From: Paracoccus aurantiacus
GTDB lineage: Bacteria > Pseudomonadota > Alphaproteobacteria > Rhodobacterales > Rhodobacteraceae
Direction: 5' to 3'
NCBI RefSeq assembly: GCF_007993065.1
Contig: NZ_VOPL01000005.1
Coordinates: forward strand, 124,001 to 188,000
DNA length: 64,000 nt
Of this stretch, positions 5,612 through 20,540 are shown piece after piece. Both the position numbers and the translations under genes were made by a program. Positions within the stretch are counted from its first letter, which is position 1. Every line of letters begins with the position of its first letter. Below the pieces are notes generated by a model that saw only the letters and a list, made by a program, of their open reading frames with translations, was not told where the DNA came from and searched no databases.

Positions 5612-6529
5612 TCAGCTGAGCCCGAGCCGCTCAACAGCATCGGCGGCGGCGCGTGCCAGCAGGCGCATCTCAGCGGTTTCGCGATCTGCGGCGCGGCGCA
5701 TCAATCCGACGGGCCCTTCGGTTCCGGCGGTCGAAAACGGCAGGCGCACCAGACGTCCATCCGCAATTTCATTCGCGACGACGCCAGAGGAAATCACCCA
5801 GACGGCATCGCTTTGCGCCGTATGAATACGCCCGAATGCGCCCGATACGGTTTCAATTCGGCGCGACGGAATGGTCACGCCCTCGGCAATCAGCAAGCGC
5901 TCTACAAAGGGGCGTATCGCGGCCCAGGGCGGCGGGAAAATCACGGTGAATTCGTCGGTGAGCCGCTGCAGGTCGGGGTTCGACAGGATCGGGTGGCCGG
6001 GCCTCGTAACGAAGATCACGTCCTCAAGATAAAGCTGCGTAAAGCTGAGGCCGCGCATCGTATCAGGTGCGCCAAGCCGTCCCAGCACCAGATCGACGCT
6101 ACCGGCACGCAATTGGTCGGTCAGATGTTCGTGGGAGCCGTCCGCGATCGTCAAAAGCAGGTTGGGCGCAGTTGCGCCTAGCAGCGTGACGAGTTCCGGC
6201 AGCAGCCGCGCCGCAACCGAGGGCAGCGCACCGAGGCGCAGACGTGGCGCACTTTCGCGCATCTGGTCGGACGCGCCGTCAAGTCCCCGCTGTATCGAGC
6301 CTAGCCCGGCCTGCGCAAAATCGAACAGCACCTCGCCCTGCGCCGTCAGTTCCACCCCGCCACGCCCCCGCGTCAGCAGCCGCGCCCCAAGGATCGCTTC
6401 AAGTTCGGCCAGCGTGCGCGAAATGGCGGGCTGGGTCAGGTTCAGCCGCTCTGCCGCGCGTTTCAGGCTGCGCGCGCGGATGATTTCGACGAATGCCTCG
6501 ATATGGCGCAGCTTGATCCGGCGATCCAT
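5612..6529 (-). CDS. pcaQ: PcaQ, LysR-type activator of protocatechuate catabolism
   Basis: A 305-residue LysR regulator: winged helix-turn-helix at residues 1-65 (LKRAAERLNLTQPAISRTLAELE), then a periplasmic-binding-like effector domain. The start MDRRIKLRHIEAFVEIIRA matches PcaQ proteins. It is divergent from pobA-pcaDCHGB with only 89 bp between the starts, the standard position for PcaQ, which in Rhizobiales activates pca genes in response to beta-carboxy-cis,cis-muconate or its lactone. The symbol rests on family resemblance plus position. Confidence 0.88.
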   Translation of the reverse strand: MDRRIKLRHIEAFVEIIRARSLKRAAERLNLTQPAISRTLAELEAILGARLLTRGRGGVELTAQGEVLFDFAQAGLGSIQRGLDGASDQMRESAPRLRLGALPSVAARLLPELVTLLGATAPNLLLTIADGSHEHLTDQLRAGSVDLVLGRLGAPDTMRGLSFTQLYLEDVIFVTRPGHPILSNPDLQRLTDEFTVIFPPPWAAIRPFVERLLIAEGVTIPSRRIETVSGAFGRIHTAQSDAVWVISSGVVANEIADGRLVRLPFSTAGTEGPVGLMRRAADRETAEMRLLARAAADAVERLGLS

Positions 6530-6618: not shown

Positions 6619-7788
6619 ATGCGCACACAAGTCGTCATTATCGGCGGAGGGCCGTCGGGGCTGCTGCTTGGCCAATTATTGCACAAGCAGGGCATCGAGG
6701 CCGTCGTGCTGGAGCGGAAGACCCGCGAATATGTTCTGGGTCGAATACGCGCGGGGGTGCTTGAAACCGGCCTTGTTCACCTGATGGAAGAGGCCGGCGT
6801 CGCTAATCGGCTGCACAAGGAAGGCTATGTCCATGACGGGACGCAGATTGCCTTCGGCGGCGAGATGTTTCACCTCGATTTCATGGCGCTGACCGGAACG
6901 CCCGTCATCGTCTATGGCCAGACCGAGGTGACGCGCGATCTTTATGACGCACGCGAGGCGGCGGGTGCCCGGACCGAGTTCGAGGTCGATCATGTCGTCA
7001 TCCACGACGCCGACAGCGACAAGCCCCATGTCACTTATGAGCAGAACGGACAGACGAAGCGGATAGATTGCGATTTCATCGCCGGCTGCGACGGTTTTCA
7101 CGGCGTCAGCCGCAATACGATCCCGCTGAATGTGCGGCGTGAATACGAAAAGACCTATCCGTTCGGCTGGCTGGGTGTTCTGTCTGAAACCCCGCCGGTG
7201 CATGACGAACTGATCTATGCCAACTCGGAACGCGGCTTCGCGCTGTGTTCAATGCGCAACGAGAACCTCTCTCGGTATTATATCCAATGCGCGTTGTCCG
7301 ATCATGCCGAGGACTGGACCGACAAGGCCTTCTGGAGCGAGCTGAAGCATCGCATTCCAGACGAGATTGCCGACAAGCTTGTGACTGGTGCAAGCATCGA
7401 AAAATCCATCGCTCCGCTGCGGTCTTTCGTGACCGAACCTATGCGGTGGGGGCGGCTGTTTTTGTGCGGCGACGCAGCCCATATCGTGCCGCCGACCGGC
7501 GCGAAGGGGCTGAATACTGCGGCCAGTGATGTGCATTACCTGTATCACGGGCTCGTCCAGCACTATCATGACAAGGACAGCGACGGGATTGACCGCTACT
7601 CGGAAAAGGCGTTGCTTCGTGTCTGGAAGGCCGAACGCTTCAGTTGGTGGTTCAGCGGACTTCTGCACCGCTACCCGGATATGAGCGAGTTCGACCTGAA
7701 GATGCAGGCAGCGGACATCGCTTTCCTGCGCGACAACGAGGCGCAGCAGCGCGCATTCGCGGAAAATTATGTGGGGTTGCCATACTGA
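6619..7788 (+). CDS. pobA: 4-Hydroxybenzoate 3-monooxygenase PobA
   Basis: A 389-residue FAD-dependent monooxygenase that hydroxylates 4-hydroxybenzoate to protocatechuate using NADPH and oxygen. Visible features are the Rossmann FAD motif IIGGGPSGLLLG (residues about 7-18), the family-specific RIRAGVLE segment, the GCDGFHGVSR motif in the middle, and the second FAD motif LFLCGDAAHIVPPTGAKGLN. Length equals the well-studied Pseudomonas enzyme. It is the first gene of the operon, and its stop codon overlaps the start of pcaD (TGATG). Regulation is probably by the divergent PcaQ. Confidence 0.96.
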   Translation: MRTQVVIIGGGPSGLLLGQLLHKQGIEAVVLERKTREYVLGRIRAGVLETGLVHLMEEAGVANRLHKEGYVHDGTQIAFGGEMFHLDFMALTGTPVIVYGQTEVTRDLYDAREAAGARTEFEVDHVVIHDADSDKPHVTYEQNGQTKRIDCDFIAGCDGFHGVSRNTIPLNVRREYEKTYPFGWLGVLSETPPVHDELIYANSERGFALCSMRNENLSRYYIQCALSDHAEDWTDKAFWSELKHRIPDEIADKLVTGASIEKSIAPLRSFVTEPMRWGRLFLCGDAAHIVPPTGAKGLNTAASDVHYLYHGLVQHYHDKDSDGIDRYSEKALLRVWKAERFSWWFSGLLHRYPDMSEFDLKMQAADIAFLRDNEAQQRAFAENYVGLPY

Positions 7789-8576
7789 TGCTGACGATCA
7801 ACACGAACGGGATCGGCACGCATTATGCCGATCAGGGACCGAAGGACGGCAAGGCAGTCGTCTTTGCGAATTCTCTGGGCACGGATCTGCGGCTTTGGGA
7901 CGCGCTTTTGCCCCTGCTGCCGGACAGCCTGCGCCTGGTGCGCTATGATAAACGCGGTCATGGGCTGAGCGAGGAGACACCTTCCCCCTACAGCATTGAC
8001 CAGCTTGCCGATGACGCGGCGGGTCTGATCGAGGGCCTCGGGCTGAAGGACGTGGTCTTCGTCGGGCTGTCTATCGGAGGGCTTATCGGGCAGGCGATTG
8101 CGTTGCGGCGGCCGGATCTGCTGAAGGCTCTGGTGATCTCGAACAGCGCTGCCAAGATCGGGACCGACCAGATGTGGAATGACCGCGTTGCCGCCATCCG
8201 CGAGGGCGGGGTTAAGATCATCGCAGCCCCCACGATGGAGCGCTGGTTCTCGCCCGCGTTCCGGTCAACTCCGCAAGTCGGGCTGTGGGAACGCATGTTG
8301 GCGCGACAGCCGCAGGACGGGTATATCGGTTGCTGCCAAGCCATTGCGGGTGCTGATCTGCGCCGCGAGGTCGAAAAGCTGACGCTGCCGGTGCAGATGA
8401 TCGCGGGCAGCCTTGACGGGTCGACCCCGCCGGAACTGGTGCGGGCATCGGGCAAGCTGATCCCAGGCGCGCGCTATGCCGAAATCGACGGCGCAGGCCA
8501 TCTGCCCTGCGTCGAGGCGCCGCAGAAATACGCAGAAATCCTGAACGCATTTTTGAAAGAGGTTGGTCATGTCTGA
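7788..8576 (+). CDS. pcaD: 3-Oxoadipate enol-lactonase PcaD
   Basis: A 262-residue alpha/beta hydrolase. The nucleophile elbow GLSIGG puts the catalytic serine at about residue 95, VRYDKRGHG is the family-typical loop, and GAGHLPCVEAP near the C-terminus carries the catalytic histidine. It hydrolyses 3-oxoadipate enol-lactone to 3-oxoadipate. The start overlaps the pobA stop, and its own last 8 bases overlap pcaC, so translation is probably coupled. It is not fused to the decarboxylase; the two functions are separate adjacent genes here. Confidence 0.94.
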   Translation: MLTINTNGIGTHYADQGPKDGKAVVFANSLGTDLRLWDALLPLLPDSLRLVRYDKRGHGLSEETPSPYSIDQLADDAAGLIEGLGLKDVVFVGLSIGGLIGQAIALRRPDLLKALVISNSAAKIGTDQMWNDRVAAIREGGVKIIAAPTMERWFSPAFRSTPQVGLWERMLARQPQDGYIGCCQAIAGADLRREVEKLTLPVQMIAGSLDGSTPPELVRASGKLIPGARYAEIDGAGHLPCVEAPQKYAEILNAFLKEVGHV

Positions 8577-8949
8577 TCGTTTCGACACTGGCATGAAGGT
8601 CCGTCGAGAGGTTTTGGGCGACGCCCACGTCGACCGCGCCGAGGGGGCAAAGACGGATTTCGACGAGGCGTTCCAGACGCTGATTACCGAAGGCGCATGG
8701 GGGAATGTCTGGGCCTCCGACGGCATCAGTCGCCGCGAAAGGTCCATGCTGACGCTGGCCCTGCTGGCCGCGACCGGCAATTTCGAAGAAATCCCCATGC
8801 ATATCCGCGCCACCGCCCGCACGGGCGCAAGCAAGCGCGATGTGCTGGAGGCGTTTCAGCATGTCGCCATTTACGCGGGCGTCCCCCGCGCGAACCACGC
8901 ATTGAAACTGGCCAAGCAAACCTATGCCGAAATGGAGGGGAGCCAATGA
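8569..8949 (+). CDS. pcaC: 4-Carboxymuconolactone decarboxylase PcaC
   Basis: A 126-residue AhpD/CMD-fold protein that decarboxylates gamma-carboxymuconolactone to 3-oxoadipate enol-lactone. The family motifs [26 protein letters not shown] (about residues 62-87) and [19 protein letters not shown] are both present, including the HIRAT and YAGVPRA blocks of this decarboxylase. The ATG at 8569 was preferred over an in-frame one 6 bp upstream because family members start MSDRFD. Its stop codon overlaps the pcaH start as ATGA. Confidence 0.94.
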
Positions 8950-9668
8950 AGCCTGCCGAATATTATCAACGCGACCGCCGCCGCCAGCCGCCGGCGCTGA
9001 CCCCGGATTACAAGACATCGGTGGCGCGCTCGCCCCGCTACAGCATGATTTCGCTGCAGCAGTCCGTATCCGAAATCACCGGGCCGGTTTTTGGCCATAG
9101 CGACATCGACCCGATAGATAACGATCTTATCAAGAACTACGCCAAGGATCAGGACCCGGTGGGCGAGCGTATCATCGTTCATGGCCGCGTGCTGGACGAA
9201 AATGCCCGCCCCGTGCCGAACACGCTGGTCGAGATATGGCAGGCAAATGCCAGCGGGCGCTATCGCCACAAGAAGGATACCTATCTTGGCGCGCTCGACC
9301 CGAATTTCGGGGGTTGCGGGCGGACGATCACGGATGAGAACGGCTATTATTATTTCCGCACCATCAAGCCCGGTGCCTATCCCTGGCGCAACTGGGTCAA
9401 CAACTGGCGACCCGCGCATATCCATGTGTCGGTTTTCGGATCGGGCTTCTGCCAGCGGCTGATTACGCAGCTTTACTTCGAAGGCGACCCGTTGATCCCA
9501 CTGTGCCCTATCGTGGCCACGATCCCCGATCCTGATGCCATTGGGCAGTTGATCGCGCGGCTGGACATGAACGCCTCGGTGCCGCTGGATTGTATCGCCT
9601 ACAAGTTCGACATCGTGCTGCGCGGGCGGCGGTCCACCCTGTTCGAAAACCGGCTGGCGGGGAACTGA
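8946..9668 (+). CDS. pcaH: Protocatechuate 3,4-dioxygenase beta subunit PcaH
   Basis: A 240-residue subunit carrying the non-haem Fe(III) site of the intradiol enzyme that opens protocatechuate to 3-carboxy-cis,cis-muconate. The ligand cluster is visible as a tyrosine in SGRYRHKKD, then a tyrosine in PGAYPWRN and the HIH pair in [11 protein letters not shown]. The N-terminal PcaH-specific arm ([22 protein letters not shown]) is intact. The gene overlaps pcaC by 4 bp and is followed after one base by pcaG, as expected for the obligate alpha/beta complex. Confidence 0.96.
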
Positions 9669-9669
9669 G

Positions 9670-10362
9670 ATGACACAGAAGCTTGATTACCTGAAGGAAT
9701 CCTCGTCCCAGACCGCGGGACCTTACGTCCATATCGGCCTTGCACCGGGCGCTGCGGGCTTCGACATCTACCGCGAGGAACTGGGCCGCGATATTGCCGG
9801 GCCAAACGCCAGGGGCGAACGCATCCGCGTCGAAGGGCTGGTCATCGACGGCATGGGCAGCCCTGTGAAGGACGTGCTGCTGGAAGCTTGGCAGGCCAAT
9901 TCCGAAGGCATCTACGCCCATCCAGAAGGTGGTGGAGAGGTCGAGGACGGCTTTCGCGGCTGGGGGCGCGTCATCACCGATTTCGCCACCGGCGAATGGG
10001 GTTTCGACACCGTAAAGCCGGGCGCGGTCAAGGCGCGGGTCAAGCTGGGATCAGGCGTGTCCGACAAGGTCGCGGCCAACAGCCCGGACTGGCAGGGCCG
10101 CATGGAAAGCCATGCGCCAATGGCCCCGCATATCAACCTGTGGATCGTCGCGCGCGGCATCAATATCGGCCTGAACACCCGTATGTATTTCGAGGATGAG
10201 AAGGAGGCCAACGCCACCGATCCCGTACTGAACCTGATCGAATGGGAAAACCGCCGCGCGACTTTGCTTGCCAAACGCGACGGGGAACGCGACGGTGTCC
10301 CGGTCTATCGCTTCGAAATCCGCCTGCAAGGCGACAATGAGACGGTGTTCTTCGATGTCTGA
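9670..10362 (+). CDS. pcaG: Protocatechuate 3,4-dioxygenase alpha subunit PcaG
   Basis: A 230-residue structural partner of PcaH. It keeps the intradiol dioxygenase fold (QTAGPYVHIGLAPGAAG at the N-terminus, GWGRVITD and APMAPHINLWIVARGINIGL in the core) but, as usual for alpha subunits, lacks the full set of iron ligands. Its last 8 bases overlap the start of the BKACE gene. It lies between pcaH and the downstream cleavage-enzyme gene. Confidence 0.95.
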   Translation: MTQKLDYLKESSSQTAGPYVHIGLAPGAAGFDIYREELGRDIAGPNARGERIRVEGLVIDGMGSPVKDVLLEAWQANSEGIYAHPEGGGEVEDGFRGWGRVITDFATGEWGFDTVKPGAVKARVKLGSGVSDKVAANSPDWQGRMESHAPMAPHINLWIVARGINIGLNTRMYFEDEKEANATDPVLNLIEWENRRATLLAKRDGERDGVPVYRFEIRLQGDNETVFFDV

Positions 10363-11194
10363 CAACAAACCCTGCATCATCTGCGTCGCCATCACCGGGT
10401 CGCTTCCAACCAAGGAAAACAATCCTGCAGTCCCGATCACCATCGCGGAACAGATCGAGTCCACTCAGGAAGCGTTCGAAGCGGGCGCGAGCATCGCGCA
10501 TTGCCATGTGCGCGACGACGAAGGCAAACCCACCAGCGACCCGGACCGGTTCGCTGCGCTGAAAGAGGGGCTGGAAAAGCACTGTCCCGGCATGATCGTC
10601 CAGCTCTCGACGGGCGGGCGGTCCGGCGCAGGCAATGCACGAGGGGGCATGCTGTCCCTTGCGCCGGATATGGCCAGCCTGTCGGTCGGGTCAAACAACT
10701 TCCCGACCCGCGTTTACGAGAACCCGCCTGATCTGGTCGAATGGCTGGCATCCGAGATGCTGAAATACGATGTGAAGCCGGAAATCGAGGCGTTTGACCT
10801 TAGCCACATCCTGCAGGCGGGGGCGATGCATAAGGCGGGCAAGATCAAGGATACGCCCTATGTGCAATTCGTCATGGGCGTGAAGAACGCCATGCCGGTC
10901 GATCGCGATGTGTTCGATTACTATATCCACACGGTCAAGCGGCTGTTCGGTGATGATGCCGAATGGTGCGCCGCCGGGATCGGTTCGAACCAGCTTGTGA
11001 TCAATGAATGGGCGATTTCCTCGGGTGGCCATGCGCGCACCGGGCTGGAAGACAACGTGCGTCTGAACAAGGACAGTCTTGCACCCTCGAACGCGGCGTT
11101 GGTGAAACGGGCGGTCGATCTGTGCGGGAAATACGAACGCCCCGTCGCCACCTTCCAGCAGGCACGTCAGATGCTGGGACTTCGGGCGGCCTGA
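10355..11194 (+). CDS. Beta-keto acid cleavage enzyme (BKACE, DUF849 family), candidate 3-oxoadipate cleavage
   Basis: A 279-residue TIM-barrel Zn enzyme of the 3-keto-5-aminohexanoate cleavage family. Zn ligands are visible as His49 and His51 in IAHCHVRDDEG, and the signature HARTGLEDNVRLNK lies near residues 225-240. Family members react a beta-keto acid with acetyl-CoA to give acetoacetate plus a new acyl-CoA. It is translationally coupled to pcaG on one side and pcaB on the other (TGATG), well inside the pca operon. No pcaIJ or pcaF is visible in the window. The natural substrate is therefore probably 3-oxoadipate, giving succinyl-CoA and acetoacetate. Family assignment is firm; the substrate is inferred from context. 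Confidence 0.9.
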   Translation: MSDNKPCIICVAITGSLPTKENNPAVPITIAEQIESTQEAFEAGASIAHCHVRDDEGKPTSDPDRFAALKEGLEKHCPGMIVQLSTGGRSGAGNARGGMLSLAPDMASLSVGSNNFPTRVYENPPDLVEWLASEMLKYDVKPEIEAFDLSHILQAGAMHKAGKIKDTPYVQFVMGVKNAMPVDRDVFDYYIHTVKRLFGDDAEWCAAGIGSNQLVINEWAISSGGHARTGLEDNVRLNKDSLAPSNAALVKRAVDLCGKYERPVATFQQARQMLGLRAA

Positions 11195-12489
11195 TGGTGT
11201 CGACCCTGTTCGCGCATTTGCTTGGCGATGCCGAAATGGCGGCGCTGATGGGTGATGAGGCAGCGATTTCGGCCATGCTTCGTGCCGAGGCGGCGCTGTC
11301 TCGTGCGCAGGGCAGATTGGGGATCATCCCGGAAGACGCGGCGACTGCGATCGCGAGTGCCGCCGAAAGCCTGCGCCCCGATCCGTTGGGTCTGGCAGCG
11401 GGCGTCGCCCGTGCTGGCATCACCGCGCAGCCTGTCATCACCGCGCTGAAACAGGCGGCGGGCGATCATGCGGGATGGGTGCATTACGGCGCGACTTCGC
11501 AGGACATCGTCGATACGGGGCTGATGATCCAGTTGTCGCAGGCGCTGGCGCTTCTGCGGTCGCGGTTGTCGGGTCTGAGCGATCTGCTTGGCACGAAGGC
11601 CCGTGAATATGCCGATCTGGCAATCCCTGCGCATACCCGCTTTCAGATCGCTGCACCGACGACGCTTGGCGCGAAGATCGCCGTCTGGCGCGCTCCGCTG
11701 ACGCGTCAGTTGCAGCGCTTGGACGAGCTGCTGCCGCGCCTGCTGAACCTGTCCCTTTACGGCGCGGCGGGGACGTCTGCCGCGCTCGGTCCAAGGGTTT
11801 CCGAGGTCCGGCAGATCATGGCCGACGATCTGGATCTGGCCGCGCCTGACATTCCCTGGCACAGCACCCGTGACCTGATCGCCGAACTCGGTGGCTGGCT
11901 GTCGCTGACGACCGGCGCGCTTGGCAAGATGGGTGCTGATCTGGTTCTGCTTGGTCAGTCGGAACTGGCGCAGGTCACGGCGGGCACCGGCGGTGCATCA
12001 TCGACCATGCCGCAGAAGTCGAACCCGGTCGCGGCCGAAACGCTGGTGACGCTGGCTCGGCTGAATGCAGGCGATCTGGGGGAACTGCATCAGGCTATGA
12101 TCCATGCCTATGAACGCGATGGCGCAACACTGGAGATGGAATGGGCAGTGCTGCCCGCGATGCTGGAACGGACTGCCGCAAGCTTGCGCATCGGGCTTGA
12201 CCTTGCACAGACAGTTCGGGCGAACCCGGATCGGATTGCGGAGGCCTTCAGCGCAGATCGCGGCATGATGATGGCCGAAGCTGCAGGCTTTCTGCTGGCA
12301 CAGGACATGCCCCGGTCAGAGGCGCTGAAGATTGTTGCGCGCGCGCTTTCCGAGATGCAGAAGGATCAGAGCCTGACGCTTGACGCGGCGTTGGAGAGGA
12401 TTGCGCCGGGCCGGGATTGGCAGGCGGAACTGGCGCCGGAAAGCAATCTGGGGGCGGCGCCGGCCATCGCGCGCGCAGCCGGGGACTGA
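11194..12489 (+). CDS. pcaB: 3-Carboxy-cis,cis-muconate cycloisomerase PcaB
   Basis: A 431-residue member of the fumarase/aspartase superfamily that converts 3-carboxy-cis,cis-muconate to 4-carboxymuconolactone. The superfamily signature GTGGASSTMPQKSNPV is at residues 264-279, HYGATSQDIVDTG at about 97-109, and the C-terminal CMLE helix region is present. The ATG at 11194 overlaps the preceding stop codon. It is the last aromatic-pathway enzyme of the operon and is separated by 2 bp from the TauE/SafE transporter. Confidence 0.94.
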   Translation: MVSTLFAHLLGDAEMAALMGDEAAISAMLRAEAALSRAQGRLGIIPEDAATAIASAAESLRPDPLGLAAGVARAGITAQPVITALKQAAGDHAGWVHYGATSQDIVDTGLMIQLSQALALLRSRLSGLSDLLGTKAREYADLAIPAHTRFQIAAPTTLGAKIAVWRAPLTRQLQRLDELLPRLLNLSLYGAAGTSAALGPRVSEVRQIMADDLDLAAPDIPWHSTRDLIAELGGWLSLTTGALGKMGADLVLLGQSELAQVTAGTGGASSTMPQKSNPVAAETLVTLARLNAGDLGELHQAMIHAYERDGATLEMEWAVLPAMLERTAASLRIGLDLAQTVRANPDRIAEAFSADRGMMMAEAAGFLLAQDMPRSEALKIVARALSEMQKDQSLTLDAALERIAPGRDWQAELAPESNLGAAPAIARAAGD

Positions 12490-12491
12490 AC

Positions 12492-13226
12492 ATGATCACA
12501 ATATTTCTGGTCGCGATGCTGGCCTTTCTGCTGGGCGGCATCCTGAAGGGTGCGATCGGTGCAGGAACGCCAGTCGTCGTCATACCAATTCTGTCGATCT
12601 ACTATGACGTGCCCTATGCTGTTGCGGTATTTGCTGTCCCCGCACTCGCCTCGAACATCTGGCAGGGATGGAGCTATCGGCACAATCTGCGTGACCGAGG
12701 CTTCGTATGGCGGCTTGTAATCGCAGCCGCGATTGGCGCGCTGATCGGCACGCTCCTTCTGGCGGCGCTTCCGTCGAAATGGCTGTCGATCATCGTCGCC
12801 CTGCTCGCGCTGTTCTACGTGGCCTTCCGCCTGATGAAGCCGGACTGGCAACTGAACTATGGCGTGGCGCGGGTGCTGGCGGCACCTGCCGGGTTTCTGG
12901 GCGGCGTGTTGCAGGGGGCTGCCGGGATCTCTGCGCCGGTGTCGCTGACCTATCTACATGCGATCCACCTGCCGCGTGATCGCTTTATACCCACCATCTC
13001 GTCGATGTTTGCGGCGATGTCGATCGTTCAGCTTCCTTCGCTTGTCGCGGTCGGGATCATGACCTGGCAGATATTTCTTGTCAGCATTTTTGCATGCATC
13101 CCGCTTTTCGTGGGCATGCCGATCGGCGCGGCGATGGTCCGGCGCGTGGGCGCAAAGGCATTCGACCGGATGATAATGGCCCTGCTGGTCGTCATCGCGG
13201 GAATGTTGCTGCTGGAATCGCTCTGA
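12492..13226 (+). CDS. TauE/SafE-family membrane transporter
   Basis: A 244-residue integral membrane protein with about 7-8 hydrophobic segments. It begins with the TauE/SafE helix FLLGGILKGAIGAGTPVVVIP and has the matching second-half repeat FLGGVLQGAAGISAPVSL. The family exports or imports organic anions such as sulfite and sulfoacetate. Tight linkage to pcaB (2 bp) suggests it moves an aromatic acid or pathway intermediate, an inference only. It ends 3 bp before the convergent FadJ-like gene. Confidence 0.85.
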   Translation: MITIFLVAMLAFLLGGILKGAIGAGTPVVVIPILSIYYDVPYAVAVFAVPALASNIWQGWSYRHNLRDRGFVWRLVIAAAIGALIGTLLLAALPSKWLSIIVALLALFYVAFRLMKPDWQLNYGVARVLAAPAGFLGGVLQGAAGISAPVSLTYLHAIHLPRDRFIPTISSMFAAMSIVQLPSLVAVGIMTWQIFLVSIFACIPLFVGMPIGAAMVRRVGAKAFDRMIMALLVVIAGMLLLESL

Positions 13227-13229
13227 ACG

Positions 13230-15308
13230 TCAGCCGTTCAGGTCGCTGAAGCTGCGCCCTTCGCGTGCCAGACGTTCGACAAGCGGCGGCACGGACCAGC
13301 TTTTCGCATCTTCTGCCACAAGTGCTTTGTATTCCCTGACCAGTTCGGGAAGGCCCCATTCATCCGCCAGGCGCATCGGCCCGCCACGCCAACGCGGAAA
13401 TCCGTATCCGTGGACCAGCACGAGGTCCACATCTGCAGGTCGGTTGGCGATGCCTTCGTCGACGATCTCCGCGCCTTCAGCGATCATCGAAAGCGCAAGC
13501 CGGCGCGCGATCTCGTCATCGGTAAATTCACGGCGGGTGACTTTGTCTTCTTCCGATGCGCGGCGCACCTCGTTATCGACCAGTTCTGAGGGGACGGGCC
13601 TGCCATCGGGGTAATCATACCAGCCGGCCTTGGTCTTGCGGCCAAGGCGTGCGTGGTCTTCGACCAACCTGTCGGCCACGGGAACATAGCGCCCGGTGAA
13701 TTCGATCCCCGCATCGCGTTTGCGCTTGCGGTTGGCATAAGCGATATCGAGGCCAGACAGGTCCTGCACCGCATATGGACCCATCGCCATGCCGAACGCC
13801 ATCATCGCGCGGTCCACCTGCGCCGGCAGCGCGCCCTCGAGCAGCAGGACATCCGCGGTCTGGCGATAGCGGGTCAGGATACGATTGCCGATAAAGCCGT
13901 CGCAGACACCTGCCTCGACCGCGATCTTGTTCAGTCGGCCGGTCAGCGCGAAAGCGGTGGCGAGCGTCTGCGCCGAAGTGCCTTCGGCCCGGATCACCTC
14001 GACCAGTTTCATCAAATGGGCGGGCGCAAAGAAATGCAGGCCGAGGAAGCGAGTGGGATCAGGCACCACCTCGGCAATCCGGTTCACATCAAGATATGAG
14101 GTATTGGTGGCAAGGATCGTGTCGCCCGGCAGCGCCCCAGCCAAGCGTGTGAACAGGGCGCGCTTGACGTCAAGATCTTCGAAAACGGCCTCGATCACCA
14201 TATCTGCTGCGGGCAGTTCGGCGTCGTGGCCACTGATGAATTGGAACGTATCGGACTGGCGGCGGTCGGATTCGGCCTGTTCCAGCTTGCCACGACTGAC
14301 GGCATCGGCAAACAGCTTGGCCACATTGGCACGGGCGCGCGCCTCTGCCTCGGCATCGTTTTCCAGCAGCGTGATCTCGATGCCGGCGGTGTTGAGCGCA
14401 TAGGCAATCGCCGCGCCCATCGTGCCGCCGCCTGCCACAAGCACATGATCGACCGGCTTAGGGTCCAGTTTCCGCAAATCGCGTGACGCACCCGCCCCGC
14501 GCTCGGCAAAGAAGATATGGCGCAGCGCGCGGGCCTGTTCACCGGCGCGCAGGTCCAGAAATGCGGCACGTTCAGCCGCCATACCTTCGGCGAGCGGAAG
14601 CGTGGCAGCCTGCTCCATCAGCTCGATCGCCTTCAGCGGGGCGGTCTGGCCGCGCATCCGCTTCTGCGCCGTCTCGCGCGCGGCTTGCGCCGCCACAGGT
14701 GCGGGCGCGGGGGCAGGCATATCGGAAATGGCGGGGCGAAGCCGGCTCAGGTCGAGCGCGAGCGCTTCTGCCAGCGGATCATCGGCGAGCGCATCGACCA
14801 TGCCTTCCGACAGCGCCGCCTTGCCTTTCAGCGTCTTTCCGGTCGAGATCAACGGCAATGCCTTTTCCAGCCCGATCAGACGTGGCAGCCGCTGCGTCCC
14901 GCCCGACCCCGGAACCACGCCAAGCGTGACCTCTGGCAGTCCCAGAACCGCCGATGGCGCAGCGATGCGGTATCGGCAGGACAGCGCGATTTCATAGCCC
15001 CCGCCAAGTGCAGCACCGTTTATCGCGGCGATGGCGGGAAGTTCGGCAAGCGCGTTCAGCACATCGGGCAGCTGCGGATCAAGTGCTGGCCCGTCAAACT
15101 CCTTCGCATCGGCTCCGGCCACGAAAGCCCGCCCCGCGCCTGTGATGACGACCCGGTCGATCCGCCCCGTCTGCAGGGCAGCCTTTGCGTCCTGACAAGC
15201 CGCCAGCAACGCCGCGCGCACGGATTGCGAGATCACGTTAACCGGCGGGTTATCGACCGTAAGAACAAGGGCGTTACCGCGAAATTCCTGGCGGATGGGG
15301 TTGGACAT
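13230..15308 (-). CDS. Multifunctional beta-oxidation protein: enoyl-CoA hydratase / 3-hydroxyacyl-CoA dehydrogenase (FadJ-like)
   Basis: A 692-residue fusion. Residues 1 to about 190 are a crotonase domain, with oxyanion-hole segments AGADAKEF and GAALGGGYEIALSCRYR and the loop GVVPGSGGTQRLPRL. Residues about 285-465 are the NAD-binding domain of 3-hydroxyacyl-CoA dehydrogenase (VAGGGTMGAAIAYALNTAG; GLHFFAPAHLMKLVEV). Two C-terminal dehydrogenase domains follow (NRILTRYRQ; VHGYGFPRWRGGPM). It catalyses hydration and oxidation of 2-enoyl-CoA. No thiolase gene is adjacent. It has its own promoter and is convergent with the pca operon, so it is probably not part of it, although it could process CoA esters from aromatic or dicarboxylic acids. 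Confidence 0.92.
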   Translation of the reverse strand: MSNPIRQEFRGNALVLTVDNPPVNVISQSVRAALLAACQDAKAALQTGRIDRVVITGAGRAFVAGADAKEFDGPALDPQLPDVLNALAELPAIAAINGAALGGGYEIALSCRYRIAAPSAVLGLPEVTLGVVPGSGGTQRLPRLIGLEKALPLISTGKTLKGKAALSEGMVDALADDPLAEALALDLSRLRPAISDMPAPAPAPVAAQAARETAQKRMRGQTAPLKAIELMEQAATLPLAEGMAAERAAFLDLRAGEQARALRHIFFAERGAGASRDLRKLDPKPVDHVLVAGGGTMGAAIAYALNTAGIEITLLENDAEAEARARANVAKLFADAVSRGKLEQAESDRRQSDTFQFISGHDAELPAADMVIEAVFEDLDVKRALFTRLAGALPGDTILATNTSYLDVNRIAEVVPDPTRFLGLHFFAPAHLMKLVEVIRAEGTSAQTLATAFALTGRLNKIAVEAGVCDGFIGNRILTRYRQTADVLLLEGALPAQVDRAMMAFGMAMGPYAVQDLSGLDIAYANRKRKRDAGIEFTGRYVPVADRLVEDHARLGRKTKAGWYDYPDGRPVPSELVDNEVRRASEEDKVTRREFTDDEIARRLALSMIAEGAEIVDEGIANRPADVDLVLVHGYGFPRWRGGPMRLADEWGLPELVREYKALVAEDAKSWSVPPLVERLAREGRSFSDLNG

Positions 15309-15551: not shown

Positions 15552-16892
15552 GTGACGAACTCGCCCCTTACGCCCGGTCTTGCAGCCGCGCGCCTTCCGG
15601 CCGACGCGATTGCAGCCGGTTTTTCGGACCATGAACCACCGCTTGATCCGCACGAGGCCGCCGTCGCCGCAGATCGCTGCTACTTCTGCTATGACGCGCC
15701 CTGCGTGGATGCCTGTCCGACGGGCATCGACATCCCCCTGTTCATTCGCCAGATCGCGACCGACACGCCGGAGGCGGCGGCGGCAACGATCCTGTCATCG
15801 AACATTCTTGGCGGCATGTGCGCGCGGGTCTGCCCGACAGAAACGCTGTGCGAGGGGGCTTGCGTGCGCGAAACCGCCGAGGGCAAGCCGGTCGAGATCG
15901 GGCGCTTGCAGCGTTATGCTACCGATGTCGCGATGACGGCTCCACAGCCATTTGCGCGGGCGGCTGCGACCGGCAAGCACGTCGCCGTGGTCGGTGCGGG
16001 GCCTGCGGGGCTGGCCTGCGCGCACCGGCTGGCGATGCATGGCCACGATGTGACGGTTTACGAAGCACGCCCCAAGCCCGGCGGTTTAAACGAATTCGGC
16101 ATCGCCGCATATAAGGCGACCGACGCCTTCGCGCAGCGAGAGGTCGACTGGCTGCTGCCGATCGGCGGCATAACGATGGAATGCGGCAAGGCACTGGGTC
16201 GCGATGTGACGCTGACGCAGTTGCAGGACGATTTCGATGCGGTTTTTCTTGGCGTGGGCCTTGGCGGTGTCAACGATCCGGGCCTTGGTGCGGCGAATGG
16301 CGTGCTGCGCGATGCGGTCGATTTCATCGCCGAGCTGCGCCAGACCGAAGACCTGACCTCGCTTCCCGTCGGGCGCGACGTTGTGGTGATCGGCGGCGGC
16401 ATGACAGCCGTGGACGCAGCCGTGCAGTCCCGGCTTCTGGGCGCAGAGAATGTCACCATCGTCTATCGTCGCGGGCAAGAGGCGATGTCGGCATCCGACC
16501 ACGAACAGGATCACGCGACAGGCGCGGGCGTGCGCATCCGCACCAATGCGACGCCGGTTGCGATCCACACGGGCGATCAGGGTGCCGAGATTGAGTTCGC
16601 CTATACCGAGGATGGACCCGGCGGGCTGCAGAAGCTTGACGAAACCTTTCGCCTTCGCGCCGATCAGGTGCTTTCGGCCATAGGCCAGCGGCTGCACGCG
16701 ATGCCTGACGGGCTGGTCGTAGAAGGCGGCAAGATCGCCGTTACCGGACCCGGCCGCAGCACGGTTGCGGGTATCTGGGCGGGCGGCGACTGCACCGCGG
16801 AAGGCGAGGATCTGACCGTCAGCGCCGTCGCTCAGGGTCGCGACGCCGCCGAAGATATGCACACCTACCTGATGGGAGGGAAAAATGGCTGA
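15552..16892 (+). CDS. preT: NAD-dependent dihydropyrimidine dehydrogenase subunit PreT
   Basis: A 446-residue flavoprotein subunit, the first partner of the reductive pyrimidine pathway (uracil or thymine to the dihydro form). The N-terminal region holds cysteine clusters for Fe-S centres (CYFCYDAPCVDACPTGIDIP; GMCARVCPTETLCEGAC). Next come an FAD Rossmann motif VAVVGAGPAGLACAHRL at about residue 140, an NAD(P)H-binding motif VVIGGGMTAVDAA at about 280, and a terminal WAGGDC segment. It overlaps preA by 8 bp, as expected for a heteromeric complex, and is preceded by the RutR-like operator. Confidence 0.95.
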   Translation: MTNSPLTPGLAAARLPADAIAAGFSDHEPPLDPHEAAVAADRCYFCYDAPCVDACPTGIDIPLFIRQIATDTPEAAAATILSSNILGGMCARVCPTETLCEGACVRETAEGKPVEIGRLQRYATDVAMTAPQPFARAAATGKHVAVVGAGPAGLACAHRLAMHGHDVTVYEARPKPGGLNEFGIAAYKATDAFAQREVDWLLPIGGITMECGKALGRDVTLTQLQDDFDAVFLGVGLGGVNDPGLGAANGVLRDAVDFIAELRQTEDLTSLPVGRDVVVIGGGMTAVDAAVQSRLLGAENVTIVYRRGQEAMSASDHEQDHATGAGVRIRTNATPVAIHTGDQGAEIEFAYTEDGPGGLQKLDETFRLRADQVLSAIGQRLHAMPDGLVVEGGKIAVTGPGRSTVAGIWAGGDCTAEGEDLTVSAVAQGRDAAEDMHTYLMGGKNG

Positions 16893-18183
16893 TCTGCGTT
16901 CGAACTTCGTGGGGATCAAATCCCCTAACCCGTTCTGGCTGGCCTCTGCCCCGCCCACCGACAAGGAATATAATGTCCGCCGCGCTTACGAGGCTGGCTG
17001 GGGCGGCGTGGTGTGGAAGACGCTCGGTGCGGAAGGGCCGCCGGTCGTGAACGTCAACGGCCCGCGATACGGCGTCATCCACGGCGCCGATCGCCGGGTG
17101 CTGGGGCTGAACAATATCGAGCTGATTACCGACCGGCCGCTGGAGGTGAACCTGCGCGAGATCAAGCAGGTCAAGCGCGACTATCCCGACCGCGCGCTTG
17201 TCATCAGCCTGATGGTCCCTTGTGACGAAGACAGCTGGAAAGCCATCCTTTCCGCCATTGAAGACACCGGCGCCGACGGGGTGGAGCTGAACTTCGGCTG
17301 CCCCCACGGGATGAGCGAGCGCGGTATGGGCTCTGCCGTCGGCCAGGTGCCGGAATATATCGAGATGGTGACCCGGTGGGTCAAGCAATACTCGCGCATG
17401 CCCTGCATCGTGAAGCTGACGCCCAACATCGCCGACATCCGCAAACCGGCCGAGGCCGCGAAGCGCGGCGGGGCCGACGCGGTCAGTCTCATCAACACGA
17501 TCAACAGTATCACTTCGGTCGATCTGGACCTGTTCGCGCCGGAACCGACCATTGACGGCAAGGGCGCGCATGGCGGCTATTGCGGGCCGGCGGTGAAGCC
17601 GATTGCGCTGAATATGGTGGCCGAAATCGCGCGGTCAGCGGAAACGCGGGGCCTGCCGATCAGCGGAATCGGCGGCGTGACGACTTGGCGCGATGCGGCT
17701 GAATTCATGGCGCTTGGCGCGGGCAATGTGCAGGTCTGCACGGCGGCGATGACCTATGGCTTCAAGGTCGTGCAGGAAATGATCTCTGGCCTCGGCCAGT
17801 ATCTGGACGACAAGGACATCACCCTGAACGACCTGATCGGACGTGCGGTCCCGAACGTCACCGACTGGCAATATCTGAACCTGAACTATGTCACCAAGGC
17901 ACAGATCGACCAGGATTTGTGCATCAAATGCGGGCGCTGCTATGCCGCGTGCGAGGATACAAGCCATCAGGCCATCGCCATGCTTCCGGGCCGCGTGTTC
18001 GAGGTGAAGGACGACGAATGCGTCGCCTGCAACCTGTGCGTCGATGTCTGCCCGGTCGAGGATTGCATCACCATGCGAGAGCTGCCCTTGGGCGACACGG
18101 ACCCGCGTACCGGGCAGAAGGTGGTCGAGTTCGGAAACTGGACGACCCACCCCAACAACCCGATGGCCAAGGCCGCCGAATGA
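16885..18183 (+). CDS. preA: NAD-dependent dihydropyrimidine dehydrogenase subunit PreA
   Basis: A 432-residue FMN-binding TIM-barrel subunit that carries the pyrimidine-reducing site. Features include SPNPFWLASAPPTDKEYNV at the N-terminus, the substrate-site segment GVELNFGCPHGMSERGMG, and FMN-phosphate motif GIGGVTTWRDAAEF. Two C-terminal 4Fe-4S clusters (CIKCGRCYAAC and CVACNLCVDVCP) accept electrons from PreT. The ribosome site GGAGGG is 6-8 nt upstream of the start. The gene converges on the TetR regulator with 14 bp between the stops. Confidence 0.96.
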   Translation: MADLRSNFVGIKSPNPFWLASAPPTDKEYNVRRAYEAGWGGVVWKTLGAEGPPVVNVNGPRYGVIHGADRRVLGLNNIELITDRPLEVNLREIKQVKRDYPDRALVISLMVPCDEDSWKAILSAIEDTGADGVELNFGCPHGMSERGMGSAVGQVPEYIEMVTRWVKQYSRMPCIVKLTPNIADIRKPAEAAKRGGADAVSLINTINSITSVDLDLFAPEPTIDGKGAHGGYCGPAVKPIALNMVAEIARSAETRGLPISGIGGVTTWRDAAEFMALGAGNVQVCTAAMTYGFKVVQEMISGLGQYLDDKDITLNDLIGRAVPNVTDWQYLNLNYVTKAQIDQDLCIKCGRCYAACEDTSHQAIAMLPGRVFEVKDDECVACNLCVDVCPVEDCITMRELPLGDTDPRTGQKVVEFGNWTTHPNNPMAKAAE

Positions 18184-18197
18184 AGCGACTGGCGCGA

Positions 18198-18821
18198 TCA
18201 GGGGGTCAGCATTCGCCGATACAGCGTCTCGGCGAACTCCTGACCTTCCCTGATCGGATCGCGCCTTTTGCCCAGAACCGCGCGTACCTGCGGTGCAAAA
18301 TCGGCGTAATGCTGCGTCAACGCCCAGATCGAGAAGATCAGGTGATGCGGGTCGGACGGGGCCAGCCGCCCTTCGTCCATCCATCCGCCAATCAGCGCCG
18401 CCTTTTCATCTACCAGTTCACGCAACGAACCGCCCAGAACCGTGCCAATATGCGTGGCACCGCTCAGCACCTCGCCGGCGAACAGGCGGCTTTCGCGGGC
18501 GTGGCTTTTGCTCATCCGCAGCTTGGCGCGGATATAGGCAAGCATCTCCTCGACCGGCTCGCCGTCCGGGTCGATGGCGCGCAGGGGCTTCAACCAATCC
18601 TCCAGCGCGTGTTCCAGAAGCGCCAGATAAACCGCCTGTTTCGAGGGGAAGTAATACAGCAGGTTGGGCTTCGACAGCGCCGCCGCCTCGGCAATCTGAT
18701 CCAGCGTCGCGCCGCGATACCCATGGGCCGAAAACACATCCAGCGCGGCGGCAAGGATTGCCTGCGTATTGCGCTTTCGGATGCGGGTTTGCGGGGCGGG
18801 CTTGGTCATCGGGCCGGGCAT
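18198..18821 (-). CDS. rutR: RutR-like TetR-family repressor of pyrimidine catabolism
   Basis: A 207-residue regulator. The N-terminal TetR helix-turn-helix (AALDVFSAHGYRGATLDQIAEAAALSKPNLLYYFPSKQAVY, about residues 25-65) is followed by a helical ligand domain with SRLFAGEVLSGA and HLIFSIWALTQHYADF, both typical of RutR. An in-frame ATG four codons in (18809) is an alternative start. It sits between preTA and the divergent beta-ureidopropionase gene, and a RutR-like operator lies before preT. Control of this locus in response to uracil or thymine is inferred from family and position. Confidence 0.85.
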   Translation of the reverse strand: MPGPMTKPAPQTRIRKRNTQAILAAALDVFSAHGYRGATLDQIAEAAALSKPNLLYYFPSKQAVYLALLEHALEDWLKPLRAIDPDGEPVEEMLAYIRAKLRMSKSHARESRLFAGEVLSGATHIGTVLGGSLRELVDEKAALIGGWMDEGRLAPSDPHHLIFSIWALTQHYADFAPQVRAVLGKRRDPIREGQEFAETLYRRMLTP

Positions 18822-18905
18822 GTTGACAACTATTCAGGCGCAGTTAGCGTGAATGTGCGGGCAAGGTCAAAGCCTTGGCTGCCTGACGAAAGACAGGGGT
18901 AAGCG

Positions 18906-20150
18906 ATGGAAGGCGACAATATCCGGATCGACGGCGCGCGGCTGTGGGACAGCCTGATGCAAATGGCGAAAATCGGCCCCGGCGTCGCGGGTGGCAATAA
19001 CCGCCAGACCCTGACCGACGCCGATGCCGAAGGTCGCCGCCTGTTCCAAGGCTGGTGCGAGGATGCGGGCATGACCATGTCCGTCGATCGCATGGGCAAT
19101 ATGTTCATGCGTCATGAGGGCACGGACACGGACGCCGACCCGGTCTATATCGGCAGCCATCTGGATACCCAGCCTACGGGCGGCAAATATGACGGCGTGC
19201 TGGGCGTGCTTTCGGGGCTGGAGGTGATCCGGGCGATCCGCGACATGGGCCTGAAAACCCGCCGCCCCATCGTCGTCACCAACTGGACGAATGAGGAAGG
19301 CACGCGATTTGCGCCCGCAATGCTGGCAAGCGGCGTCTATGCGGGCATCCATGACGAGGATTTCGCCAATAGCCGCGAGGATGCGGACGGCAAGAAGTTC
19401 GGCGATGAGCTGGACCGCATCGGCTGGCGCGGCGACGATCCGGTTGGCGGGCGTCCCATGCATGCGATGTTCGAATATCACATCGAACAGGGGCCAATTC
19501 TGGAAGCCGAGAACAAGCAGATCGGTGTCGTGACCCACGGGCAGGGCCTGTGGTGGTTGCAGGTCACGCTGACCGGAAAGGATGCGCATACCGGCAGCAC
19601 GCCGATGAACATGCGGGTGAATGCGGGCCTTGGCATGGCGCGGATCATCGAAATGGTGCATCGGGTGGCGATGGCTCACCAGCCTGACGCGGTGGGCGCG
19701 GTTGGGCAGGCCAATGTCTATCCGAACAGCCGCAACGTGATCCCCGGCAAGGCTGTGTTTACCATCGACATCCGGTCCCCGGAGCTGGAAAAGCTGAACG
19801 CCATGCGCGCCGAGATCGAGGCGGAAGCCCCGAAGATCGCCGAGGAACTCGGTCTCGGGATCGAGATCGAGCCGGTCGGCCATTTCGACCCGGTGACCTT
19901 CGATCCGGGGCTGGTCGAGGTCGTGCGGAGCGCCGCCGAGCATCTGGGCTATTCCCACATGAACATCGTCTCTGGCGCGGGCCACGACGCCTGCTGGATC
20001 AACCGCGTCGCGCCGACCGTGATGATCATGTGCCCCTGCGTTGACGGGCTTTCGCATAACGAAGCCGAGGAGATCAGCCCGGAATGGGCGAGTGCGGGGG
20101 CGGATGTGCTGCTTCACGCGGTGCTCGAAGCGGCGGAGGTGGTACGGTGA
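18906..20150 (+). CDS. Zn-dependent N-carbamoyl-beta-alanine amidohydrolase (beta-ureidopropionase)
   Basis: A 414-residue M20-fold hydantoinase/carbamoylase-family amidase. Metal ligands are visible as His85 in GSHLDTQP, Asp96 in GGKYDG and Glu130/Glu131 in TNEEGTRF, with the dimerisation-domain segment DAHTGSTPMNMR and the C-terminal SGAGHDACWI. It releases beta-alanine (or beta-aminoisobutyrate), CO2 and ammonia in the last step of the reductive pyrimidine pathway. The same family includes allantoate amidohydrolase, which is otherwise missing from the purine genes here, so dual use is possible. Its stop overlaps the next small gene. Confidence 0.9.
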   Translation: MEGDNIRIDGARLWDSLMQMAKIGPGVAGGNNRQTLTDADAEGRRLFQGWCEDAGMTMSVDRMGNMFMRHEGTDTDADPVYIGSHLDTQPTGGKYDGVLGVLSGLEVIRAIRDMGLKTRRPIVVTNWTNEEGTRFAPAMLASGVYAGIHDEDFANSREDADGKKFGDELDRIGWRGDDPVGGRPMHAMFEYHIEQGPILEAENKQIGVVTHGQGLWWLQVTLTGKDAHTGSTPMNMRVNAGLGMARIIEMVHRVAMAHQPDAVGAVGQANVYPNSRNVIPGKAVFTIDIRSPELEKLNAMRAEIEAEAPKIAEELGLGIEIEPVGHFDPVTFDPGLVEVVRSAAEHLGYSHMNIVSGAGHDACWINRVAPTVMIMCPCVDGLSHNEAEEISPEWASAGADVLLHAVLEAAEVVR

Positions 20151-20518
20151 CCGTGAAGGTGATGCACAAGATGACCGCAATTTGCGCCGCAATAGCGGCG
20201 TTCGCGGGCCCATGCAACGCGCAGGAATCAGCAAAGGGCATAGGCGCCCTTGATTGCGCCACCTTTTGGGAAGGCCGCCATGATCCACTAGTCCAGAAGG
20301 AGATTGCCAGCTGGGCCTATGGCTACTTTACCGCGATGAACATGGTCCGCGCTCAAGCAACCAAACAGCCGATGCGCGACCTGGCCGGCTTGGCGACGCA
20401 ACCCTCTGCCCTATTCGCCGATACGGTGGCGGCCTGCCAGGCCGAACCGTCCGAGCTGGTCCTGGGGCATGTGCTGGCTTTCTATAACAAGCTGCCGCTG
20501 ATTGAAGCGCCGAACTGA
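20147..20518 (+). CDS. Small secreted protein of unknown function (Rap1a-like appearance)
   Basis: A 123-residue protein if the GTG at 20147 is used (overlap with the previous stop, GGAGG about 10 nt upstream); an ATG at 20162 is an alternative. The N-terminus is a Sec signal peptide (MTAICAAIAAFAGPCNA, cleavage after NAQ or NA). The mature part has two cysteines (LDCATFW and AACQAEP), the pattern WAYGYFTAMN, and a C-terminal helix ending FYNKLP. This resembles small periplasmic Rap1a/HdeA-type proteins, but the match is by eye only. It is embedded between two pyrimidine-pathway enzymes and is probably co-translated with them. No function can be assigned. Confidence 0.65.
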   Translation: MTVKVMHKMTAICAAIAAFAGPCNAQESAKGIGALDCATFWEGRHDPLVQKEIASWAYGYFTAMNMVRAQATKQPMRDLAGLATQPSALFADTVAACQAEPSELVLGHVLAFYNKLPLIEAPN

Positions 20519-20540
20519 GCGAAGGATGCAGGGGAATTCC

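Follow-up and report, generated by a model that had tools for sequence, protein, structure and literature searches.

A beta-keto acid cleavage enzyme gene inside a Paracoccus pca operon as a probable replacement for PcaIJ and PcaF

The beta-ketoadipate pathway is a textbook route and a main bacterial drain for lignin aromatics. That a Kce-type beta-keto acid cleavage enzyme (BKACE, family DUF849) can stand in for PcaIJ/PcaF at the end of this pathway is already published (PMC6449761, PMC8963497, PMC12379598). COG3246 was proposed in 2019 as a beta-ketoadipate cleavage enzyme of the catechol branch, with a noted association with protocatechuate dioxygenase genes (PMC6449761). In 2022, a DUF849 gene was placed between pcaG and pcaB in Methylobacterium, with no pcaI, pcaJ, or pcaF, its predicted substrate being cited to Bastard 2014 (PMC8963497), and in 2025 the one-step route was drawn and a pca cluster with kce and without pcaIJF was reported to give M. 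extorquens PA1 growth on protocatechuate (PMC12379598). Here we analyze a related gene, kce, in a 64-kb stretch of Paracoccus aurantiacus DNA (contig C38, positions 124001–188000; hereafter, the window) from a 3.79-Mb Paracoccus-like genome (42 contigs, 99.95% complete). We consider it probable (about 0.78) that kce encodes a 3-oxoadipate-specific enzyme, a non-homologous stand-in for the two final steps (PcaIJ and PcaF); acetoacetate would then be charged with coenzyme A (CoA) by succinyl-CoA:acetoacetate CoA-transferase (SCOT, contig C12), and a thiolase would split the acetoacetyl-CoA. Added to the published cases are a family-wide table, two loci in which other genes occupy the kce slot, the SCOT neighborhood, a caveat from contig C6, and a re-reading of roseobacter data.

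The genes are arranged as a divergent pcaQ and pobA-pcaD-pcaC-pcaH-pcaG-kce-pcaB, followed by a permease-like open reading frame (ORF; Table 1). The kce ORF runs from an ATG at 10355 to a TGA at 11192–11194; the pcaG stop codon (10360–10362) falls inside its first 8 nucleotides (nt), giving an 8-nt overlap, and the last A of its own stop is the first base of the pcaB ATG at 11194. Because of this overlap and this shared base, translational coupling of kce with pcaG and pcaB is plausible. A preliminary description of this DNA had placed a coupled DUF849/BKACE gene between pcaG and pcaB, and the ORF, both overlaps, and the matches to PF05853 and NF053568 bear it out. We compared 80 related kce loci, several of which end at contig edges, counting as a neighbor whichever matched query gene (E 1e-15) lay closest, so that unmatched genes may intervene. 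On this basis, pcaG is the nearest gene before kce in 51 loci, and pcaG and pcaB flank kce in 27. That kce is a chance neighbor without a pathway role has no support that we could find and is practically negligible, given the double gene overlap and the 27 of 80 loci that repeat this placement. The nearest named relatives of kce are from Paracoccus, with a Paracoccus metagenome-assembled genome (MAG; L022) at 93% identity.

The encoded protein matches PF05853 (BKACE/DUF849) with 306.1 bits, compared to a gathering cut-off of 24.8 (E 3.1e-91), and passes the NF053568 equivalog over model positions 2–273 of 274, but it does not pass the lysine-fermentation Kce model NF052387 (252.1 of 382). In an alignment to Kce 2Y7D, residues H49, H51, S85, E145, R228, E232, and D233 match the same residues, and the motifs HxH, STGG, E145, and R-x-G-x-E-D are retained. 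Six of these positions (H49, S85, E145, R228, E232, D233) are invariant in 80/80 relatives, column 51 standing outside the tally. We take H49, H51, and E232 to be zinc ligands and likewise presume the catalytic roles of Ser, Arg, and Asp from the Kce structure. R89, which is also invariant in all 80 relatives and is an alanine in 2Y7D, could hold the far (second) carboxylate of 3-oxoadipate, judging from the alignment. The protein is predicted to be a zinc-dependent beta-keto acid cleavage enzyme for 3-oxoadipate. This assignment, and with it the predicted reaction already given in the preliminary description, is well supported at the sequence level because the NCBIfam equivalog, the operon position, the conserved catalytic residues, and the presence of SCOT genes next to kce at some of the related loci all point to it.

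In the proposed route, 3-oxoadipate, the end product of PcaHG, PcaB, PcaC, and PcaD, would be the substrate of Kce and would be condensed with acetyl-CoA, yielding succinyl-CoA and acetoacetate. The ScoAB pair on C12 (SCOT) would then convert acetoacetate and succinyl-CoA to acetoacetyl-CoA and succinate, and a thiolase would cleave acetoacetyl-CoA with CoA to two acetyl-CoA. The net sum would be 3-oxoadipate + CoA to succinate + acetyl-CoA, identical to that of PcaIJ plus PcaF. This scheme combines established chemistry with inference: we infer that the window protein itself catalyzes the cleavage, that the C12 SCOT takes the second step, and that kce is the main route in this strain. An ending 'without CoA activation', as the preliminary description put it, applies to 3-oxoadipate but not to acetoacetate, which needs activation of its own, most probably through the C12 SCOT. 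CoA activation would be moved from 3-oxoadipate to acetoacetate and general ketone-body enzymes rather than skipped, and dedicated pcaI, pcaJ, and pcaF would therefore be unneeded in the operon. The preliminary description saw no CoA-transferase (pcaIJ) or thiolase (pcaF) in the operon or the window, and this holds: all five PF01144 matches of the genome (a pair on C12, a pair on C6, and a single match on C1) lie outside the window, as do all eight matches to the TIGR02430 thiolase, one of them on the same contig at C38:31050.

SCOT genes are found downstream of kce on the same strand in 12 of the 80 loci, at a distance of 3–33 nt in nine and of 1.35 kb in three (two Donghicola and one MAG). 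Both subunits are visible in eight of the 12; the contig ends inside scoA in L041, L073, and L094, and L101 shows a partial scoA match only, with no scoB. The matched linked subunits share 79–94% identity with the C12 pair. On a quick kce tree, the linkage needs 7 changes, at least 4 of which are forced by starred branches. Among the 100 genomes surveyed below, kce and a SCOT-type gene lie within 2.2 kb of each other in four (G032, G063, G083, G095), although G032 and the L033 genome agree in their coordinates, which makes G032 no extra case. The location of SCOT beside kce speaks for the predicted kce reaction because acetoacetate is a co-product of BKACE and not of PcaIJF. In one published study, a deoxyribonate BKACE pathway needs acetoacetate-activation and thiolysis genes in Paraburkholderia bryophila, and no acetoacetate-activating gene had a phenotype in Pseudomonas simiae (PMC6365646).

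To place the locus in its family, we surveyed 100 Rhodobacteraceae genomes from 99 genera (completeness at least 95%); because genomes of one family are not independent, the distribution statistics are descriptive. Genes were called PcaI-type when TIGR02429 exceeded 300 bits, a line that was set after seeing a gap between 309.9 and 261.1 bits and is backed by a tree. Above the cut-off, kce was present in 69 genomes, pcaH in 62, and both in 56, such that kce was commoner with pcaH (56/62) than without it (13/38), and in 42 of the 56 the two genes were at most 3 kb apart. TIGR02429 matched 14 genomes at 310–366 bits, and all other matches were at or below 261; at 1e-55, a match was found in 94 of the 100 genomes and none in six. 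All 14 PcaI-type genomes, three of which (including the window's genome) are of the C6 type described below, have an adjacent PcaJ-type gene, and in seven the short loci examined also include a PcaF-like thiolase. A PcaI-type gene was absent from 48 of the 56 genomes with both pcaH and kce and present in eight. Sixteen of the 56 yielded no PcaI-type gene and also no TIGR02430 thiolase above its cut-off; the thiolase search scored up to 16 candidates per genome, leaving one to eight unscored in each of six of them (G014, G019, G032, G040, G043, G059). In those 16 genomes, kce is the only known ending found.

Compared to these, all six genomes with pcaH and without kce have a CoA-transferase for the step, which is PcaI-type in four and a more distant pair in two. 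One of the four (G039, locus L139) shows pcaG and then pcaB among its matched genes, with no kce. The contrast between 6/6 (without kce) and 8/56 PcaI-type (with kce), uncorrected for phylogeny, gives a descriptive Fisher value of 4.9e-5, or 7.5e-6 if PcaI is scored as absent from the three C6-type genomes. In the loci with the distant PF01144 pair (L140, 1964–4823; L141, 9297–12118), the pair and a pcaF-like gene lie between pcaG and pcaB, that is, in the kce slot, and the pair has no NCBIfam match at 1e-45. We read this arrangement as a third form in which the pathway's final steps are encoded. A search of the 100 genomes with a single subunit of the distant pair, rather than with PF01144, found it in three, namely the L140 and L141 genomes and G057, whose matches are weaker (37–41% identity) and which has no pcaH. 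Replacement of PcaIJ/PcaF by kce is supported at the family level because 48/56 genomes lack a PcaI-type gene and in 16/56 the search described above found no above-cut-off TIGR02430 thiolase either. The preliminary description, which had suggested such a replacement, is in this respect partly supported; for the present genome the replacement is less certain owing to the pair and thiolase on C6.

The same distribution bears on the idea that kce serves another beta-keto acid of the same catabolon. BKACE groups overlap in their substrates (PMC4922564), and 13 of the 69 genomes with kce have no pcaH. We nevertheless judge this very unlikely: the 3-oxoadipate equivalog is passed far above its cut-off, kce tracks pcaH (56/62 versus 13/38), and 48/56 genomes lack a PcaI-type gene. 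Where 3-oxoadipate-type kce occurs without protocatechuate dioxygenase, the catechol branch or other 3-oxoadipate sources are perhaps involved.

Several results weigh against kce as the ending of the pathway, in this genome or in general. A PcaI/PcaJ-type pair on C6 scores 326 and 281 bits with TIGR02429 and TIGR02428, and a thiolase about 4 kb from it reaches 621.1 with NF006001 (3-oxoadipyl-CoA thiolase), compared to a cut-off of 622. A candidate PcaIJF set thus exists on C6, in a transport context, and C1 carries a TIGR02430 thiolase (733 bits) near paaZ and paaE. Across the family, kce lies away from pcaH in 14/56 genomes and occurs without pcaH in 13/69 (e.g., G005, G008, G030), and for these reasons kce may do other work. 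With respect to SCOT, no such gene is seen close to kce in 68 of the 80 loci, and SCOT-type genes are near-universal (94/100 with a TIGR02429 match), so that their presence alone proves nothing. Three kce genomes (G086 and G087, both with pcaH, and G116) have no TIGR02429 match at 1e-55 and would therefore need another acetoacetate-activating enzyme. The growth of M. extorquens PA1 on protocatechuate with a Methylobacterium cluster that has kce and no pcaIJF (PMC12379598) speaks for kce, provided that the host has no PcaIJF of its own. A PcaI-type gene is found in 17 of 38 named genomes with kce, including nine of 14 Paracoccus, and in two species (L051, L067) a single cluster holds both kce and pcaIJF.

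The 38 named genomes, mostly isolates, were hand-picked from the 80 loci, and at least five are also among the 100 (equal coordinates: G115/G032, G118/G006, G130/G074, G131/G078, G138/G043). Four of their TIGR02429 matches at 263–272 bits were counted as non-PcaI (Bosea, 271.5 and 264.8; Bradyrhizobium, 266.6; P. methylarcula, a partial match of 263.3). In the stretches read, PcaI-PcaJ-thiolase runs occur in P. halophilus, P. acridae, P. versutus, and P. solventivorans, and a PcaR-family regulator above its cut-off adjoins the run in the first two. No PcaI-type match was found in P. thiocyanatus, P. luteus, P. rhizosphaerae, or P. salsus, and P. methylarcula has only its partial match. Strict mutual exclusion of kce and PcaIJ was rejected, as they coexist in 8/56 and 17/38 genomes; they are alternatives able to coexist. 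Sulfitobacter D7, in which PcaIJF is grouped with a benzoate/catechol set (PMC9873259), suggests a division of labor between kce and PcaIJF.

The C6 set raises the possibility that kce acts on 3-oxoadipate while most of the flux runs through the PcaI/PcaJ-like pair and the thiolase on C6, or that both cooperate. In addition to the scores with the PcaI, PcaJ, and 3-oxoadipyl-CoA thiolase models and the retention of a PcaI-type gene in 9/14 named Paracoccus, the tree is in favor of it: the C6 type forms its own clade (SH-aLRT 95), sister to canonical PcaI (88) and apart from SCOT (100), in a quick tree that carries a long-branch warning. However, the C6 PcaI is only 52–61% identical to the canonical PcaI sequences met in the comparison, and the set lies among two TAXI-TRAP-type transporter sets (NMT1_3 and DctM matches; L008:4286–14043) rather than pca enzyme genes. 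C6-type genes, again tied to TAXI-TRAP transporters, are kept in L132, L133, and L150 and the thiolase in L150 and L151, and no pca enzyme gene was found at 1e-10 in these four stretches. Furthermore, P. thiocyanatus (L030), P. luteus (L046), and P. rhizosphaerae (L029), whose completeness is not stated, have the kce operon and no PcaI-type match. We regard such a backup or parallel role of kce as rather unlikely, and favor Kce followed by SCOT and thiolase as the ending of the pathway. The C6 module itself looks like uptake plus CoA activation for some (oxo)acid, partly conserved in L132, L133, L150, and L151; three of these stretches carry a LysR gene 29–39% like PcaQ.

Other candidates for the missing steps were considered. 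The suggested genome search for pcaI, pcaJ, and pcaF left the window empty but yielded the diverged pair and the 3-oxoadipyl-CoA-thiolase-like gene on C6, so that the idea of a genome devoid of PcaIJF candidates was rejected. The C12 pair was rejected as PcaIJ, as its alpha subunit groups with SCOT and scores 236 bits versus 326 for C6 and 310–366 in the 14 PcaI-type genomes. The C1 thiolase, about 5 kb from paaZ and paaE, is unlikely to be a dedicated PcaF.

These results invite a re-reading of data from Roseovarius nubinhibens (PMC12442348, 2025). There, a CoA-transferase (ISM_RS03130/03135) was named PcaIJ and its inactivation stops growth on 4-hydroxybenzoate, pcaF is dispensable, and general thiolases take part, reported as 'pathway crosstalk'; the terms DUF, hypothetical, BKACE, keto acid cleavage, and acetoacet do not occur in the main text of that paper. 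Most protocatechuate-using Rhodobacteraceae may end the pathway by kce, SCOT, and acetoacetyl-CoA thiolase and not by PcaIJ and PcaF, in which case the R. nubinhibens 'PcaIJ' would be SCOT acting on acetoacetate and the 'crosstalk' the normal fate of the kce product. Two kce genomes are in line with this in having TIGR02429 matches only of SCOT strength: Roseovarius gaetbuli (L082), with a kce operon and three matches (best 234.5 bits), and Roseobacter sp. MED193 (L066/G126), with kce-scoA-scoB and two (best 238.6 bits). Against it, the EC 2.3.1.9 gene ISM_RS07170 was down in the wild type on 4-hydroxybenzoate and up only in edited strains, and the double thiolase mutant reached a lower density (PMC12442348). 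In addition, kce is presumed in R. nubinhibens, a genome outside our comparison. Because of the ISM_RS07170 result and the three kce genomes without a SCOT-type gene, we hold the chances of this re-reading to be no better than even.

Should Rhodobacteraceae usually end the pathway with kce, annotating PcaIJ/PcaF on the basis of SCOT and general thiolases would be an error across a large group of ecological importance, the 'missing genes' problem of marine roseobacters would get a simple answer, and a reason would be offered for the SCOT genes beside kce in some species. A predicted weakness of such an ending is inhibition by acetoacetate, as for at least one BKACE (BKACE15, half-maximal inhibitory concentration 1.45 mM; PMC11961710). 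PcaIJ/PcaF are assigned in PMC12542667, and neither 'cleavage enzyme' nor COG3246 occurs in its text. Among the literature matches listed, which left most subscription journals outside their scope, none dealt with kce in Rhodobacteraceae aromatic catabolism or with a kce-SCOT link.

The features of the locus are collected in Table 1. PcaQ, PobA, PcaD, PcaC, PcaH, and PcaG pass their NCBIfam cut-offs, whereas PcaB falls below. The permease-like ORF, which has no NCBIfam match, was matched next to pcaB in L022 only among the 80 loci; we presume that it is of the TauE/SafE type. A FadB-like enoyl-CoA hydratase/3-hydroxyacyl-CoA dehydrogenase (13230–15308, minus strand) is convergent with the pca operon and stays under every NCBIfam cut-off among the matches listed (25 of 90 families). 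Further on (15552–21992, plus strand) lies an ordinary-looking set presumably resembling reductive pyrimidine/hydantoin catabolism, its names being our assumption from the translations.

Table 1 Features of the pca locus (positions within the window) and the profile matches on which their names rest.
Feature	Position	Strand	Evidence
pcaQ, LysR-type activator of pca operon	5612..6529	-	TIGR02424 356.2 bits, cut-off 303.8
pobA, 4-hydroxybenzoate 3-monooxygenase	6619..7788	+	TIGR02360 693.9 bits, cut-off 538.7
pcaD, 3-oxoadipate enol-lactonase	7779..8576	+	TIGR02427 305.7 bits, cut-off 255.85
pcaC, 4-carboxymuconolactone decarboxylase	8572..8949	+	TIGR02425 191.5 bits, cut-off 155.7
pcaH	8946..9668	+	TIGR02422 366.1 bits, cut-off 296.4 (scan started at 8922)
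pcaG, protocatechuate 3,4-dioxygenase alpha subunit	9670..10362	+	TIGR02423 229.4 bits, cut-off 126.25
kce (BKACE/DUF849), predicted 3-oxoadipate:acetyl-CoA acetyltransferase	10355..11194	+	NF053568 489.9 bits, cut-off 350; overlaps both neighbors
pcaB	11194..12489	+	best NCBIfam matches are PcaB models, below cut-off: 329.3 of 371, 324.8 of 355.75 (scan started at 11197)
membrane permease-like ORF, possible last operon gene	12480..13226	+	ORF call; start chosen by hand

A second BKACE gene lies on C40 (L010:2455–8990), clustered with a periplasmic binding protein (PF13458) and a 3-hydroxyacyl-CoA-dehydrogenase-like protein. This paralogue was rejected as a 3-oxoadipate enzyme, as it matches NF053538, of the 3,5-dioxohexanoate type (534.2 of 430). 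The cluster could be a carnitine-type or dioxohexanoate-type pathway; a carnitine-type BKACE is described in SAR11 (PMC12421898).

Compared to known systems, PcaIJ plus PcaF would achieve the same net conversion as the proposed route, but with unrelated proteins, in two steps, and with CoA placed on 3-oxoadipate. Within the BKACE family, Kce of lysine fermentation (2Y7D) shares the aligned catalytic residues and differs in its substrate, 3-keto-5-aminohexanoate, and BKACE15 (PDB 8RIO; PMC11961710), also of solved structure, differs in acting on malonate semialdehyde. The closest solved chains, PDB 3FA5, 3CHV, and 3NO5 (E 7.8e-163, 2.6e-140, and 3.6e-121), are DUF849 structures of the same family whose molecule names reveal no function. 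The window protein is a full-length member of NF053568, with no difference found; the name of that model suggests a Cupriavidus necator reference. The COG3246 gene of Ralstonia eutropha H16, located with catBCD under CatM/BenM, is proposed for the same step, but in the catechol branch of a betaproteobacterium (PMC6449761). The Methylobacterium kce has the same slot, no pcaI, pcaJ, or pcaF in the operon, and the same proposed reaction (PMC8963497, PMC12379598); the present locus differs in belonging to Rhodobacteraceae, in having pcaD and pcaC as separate genes, and in the additional PcaI/PcaJ-like pair on C6.

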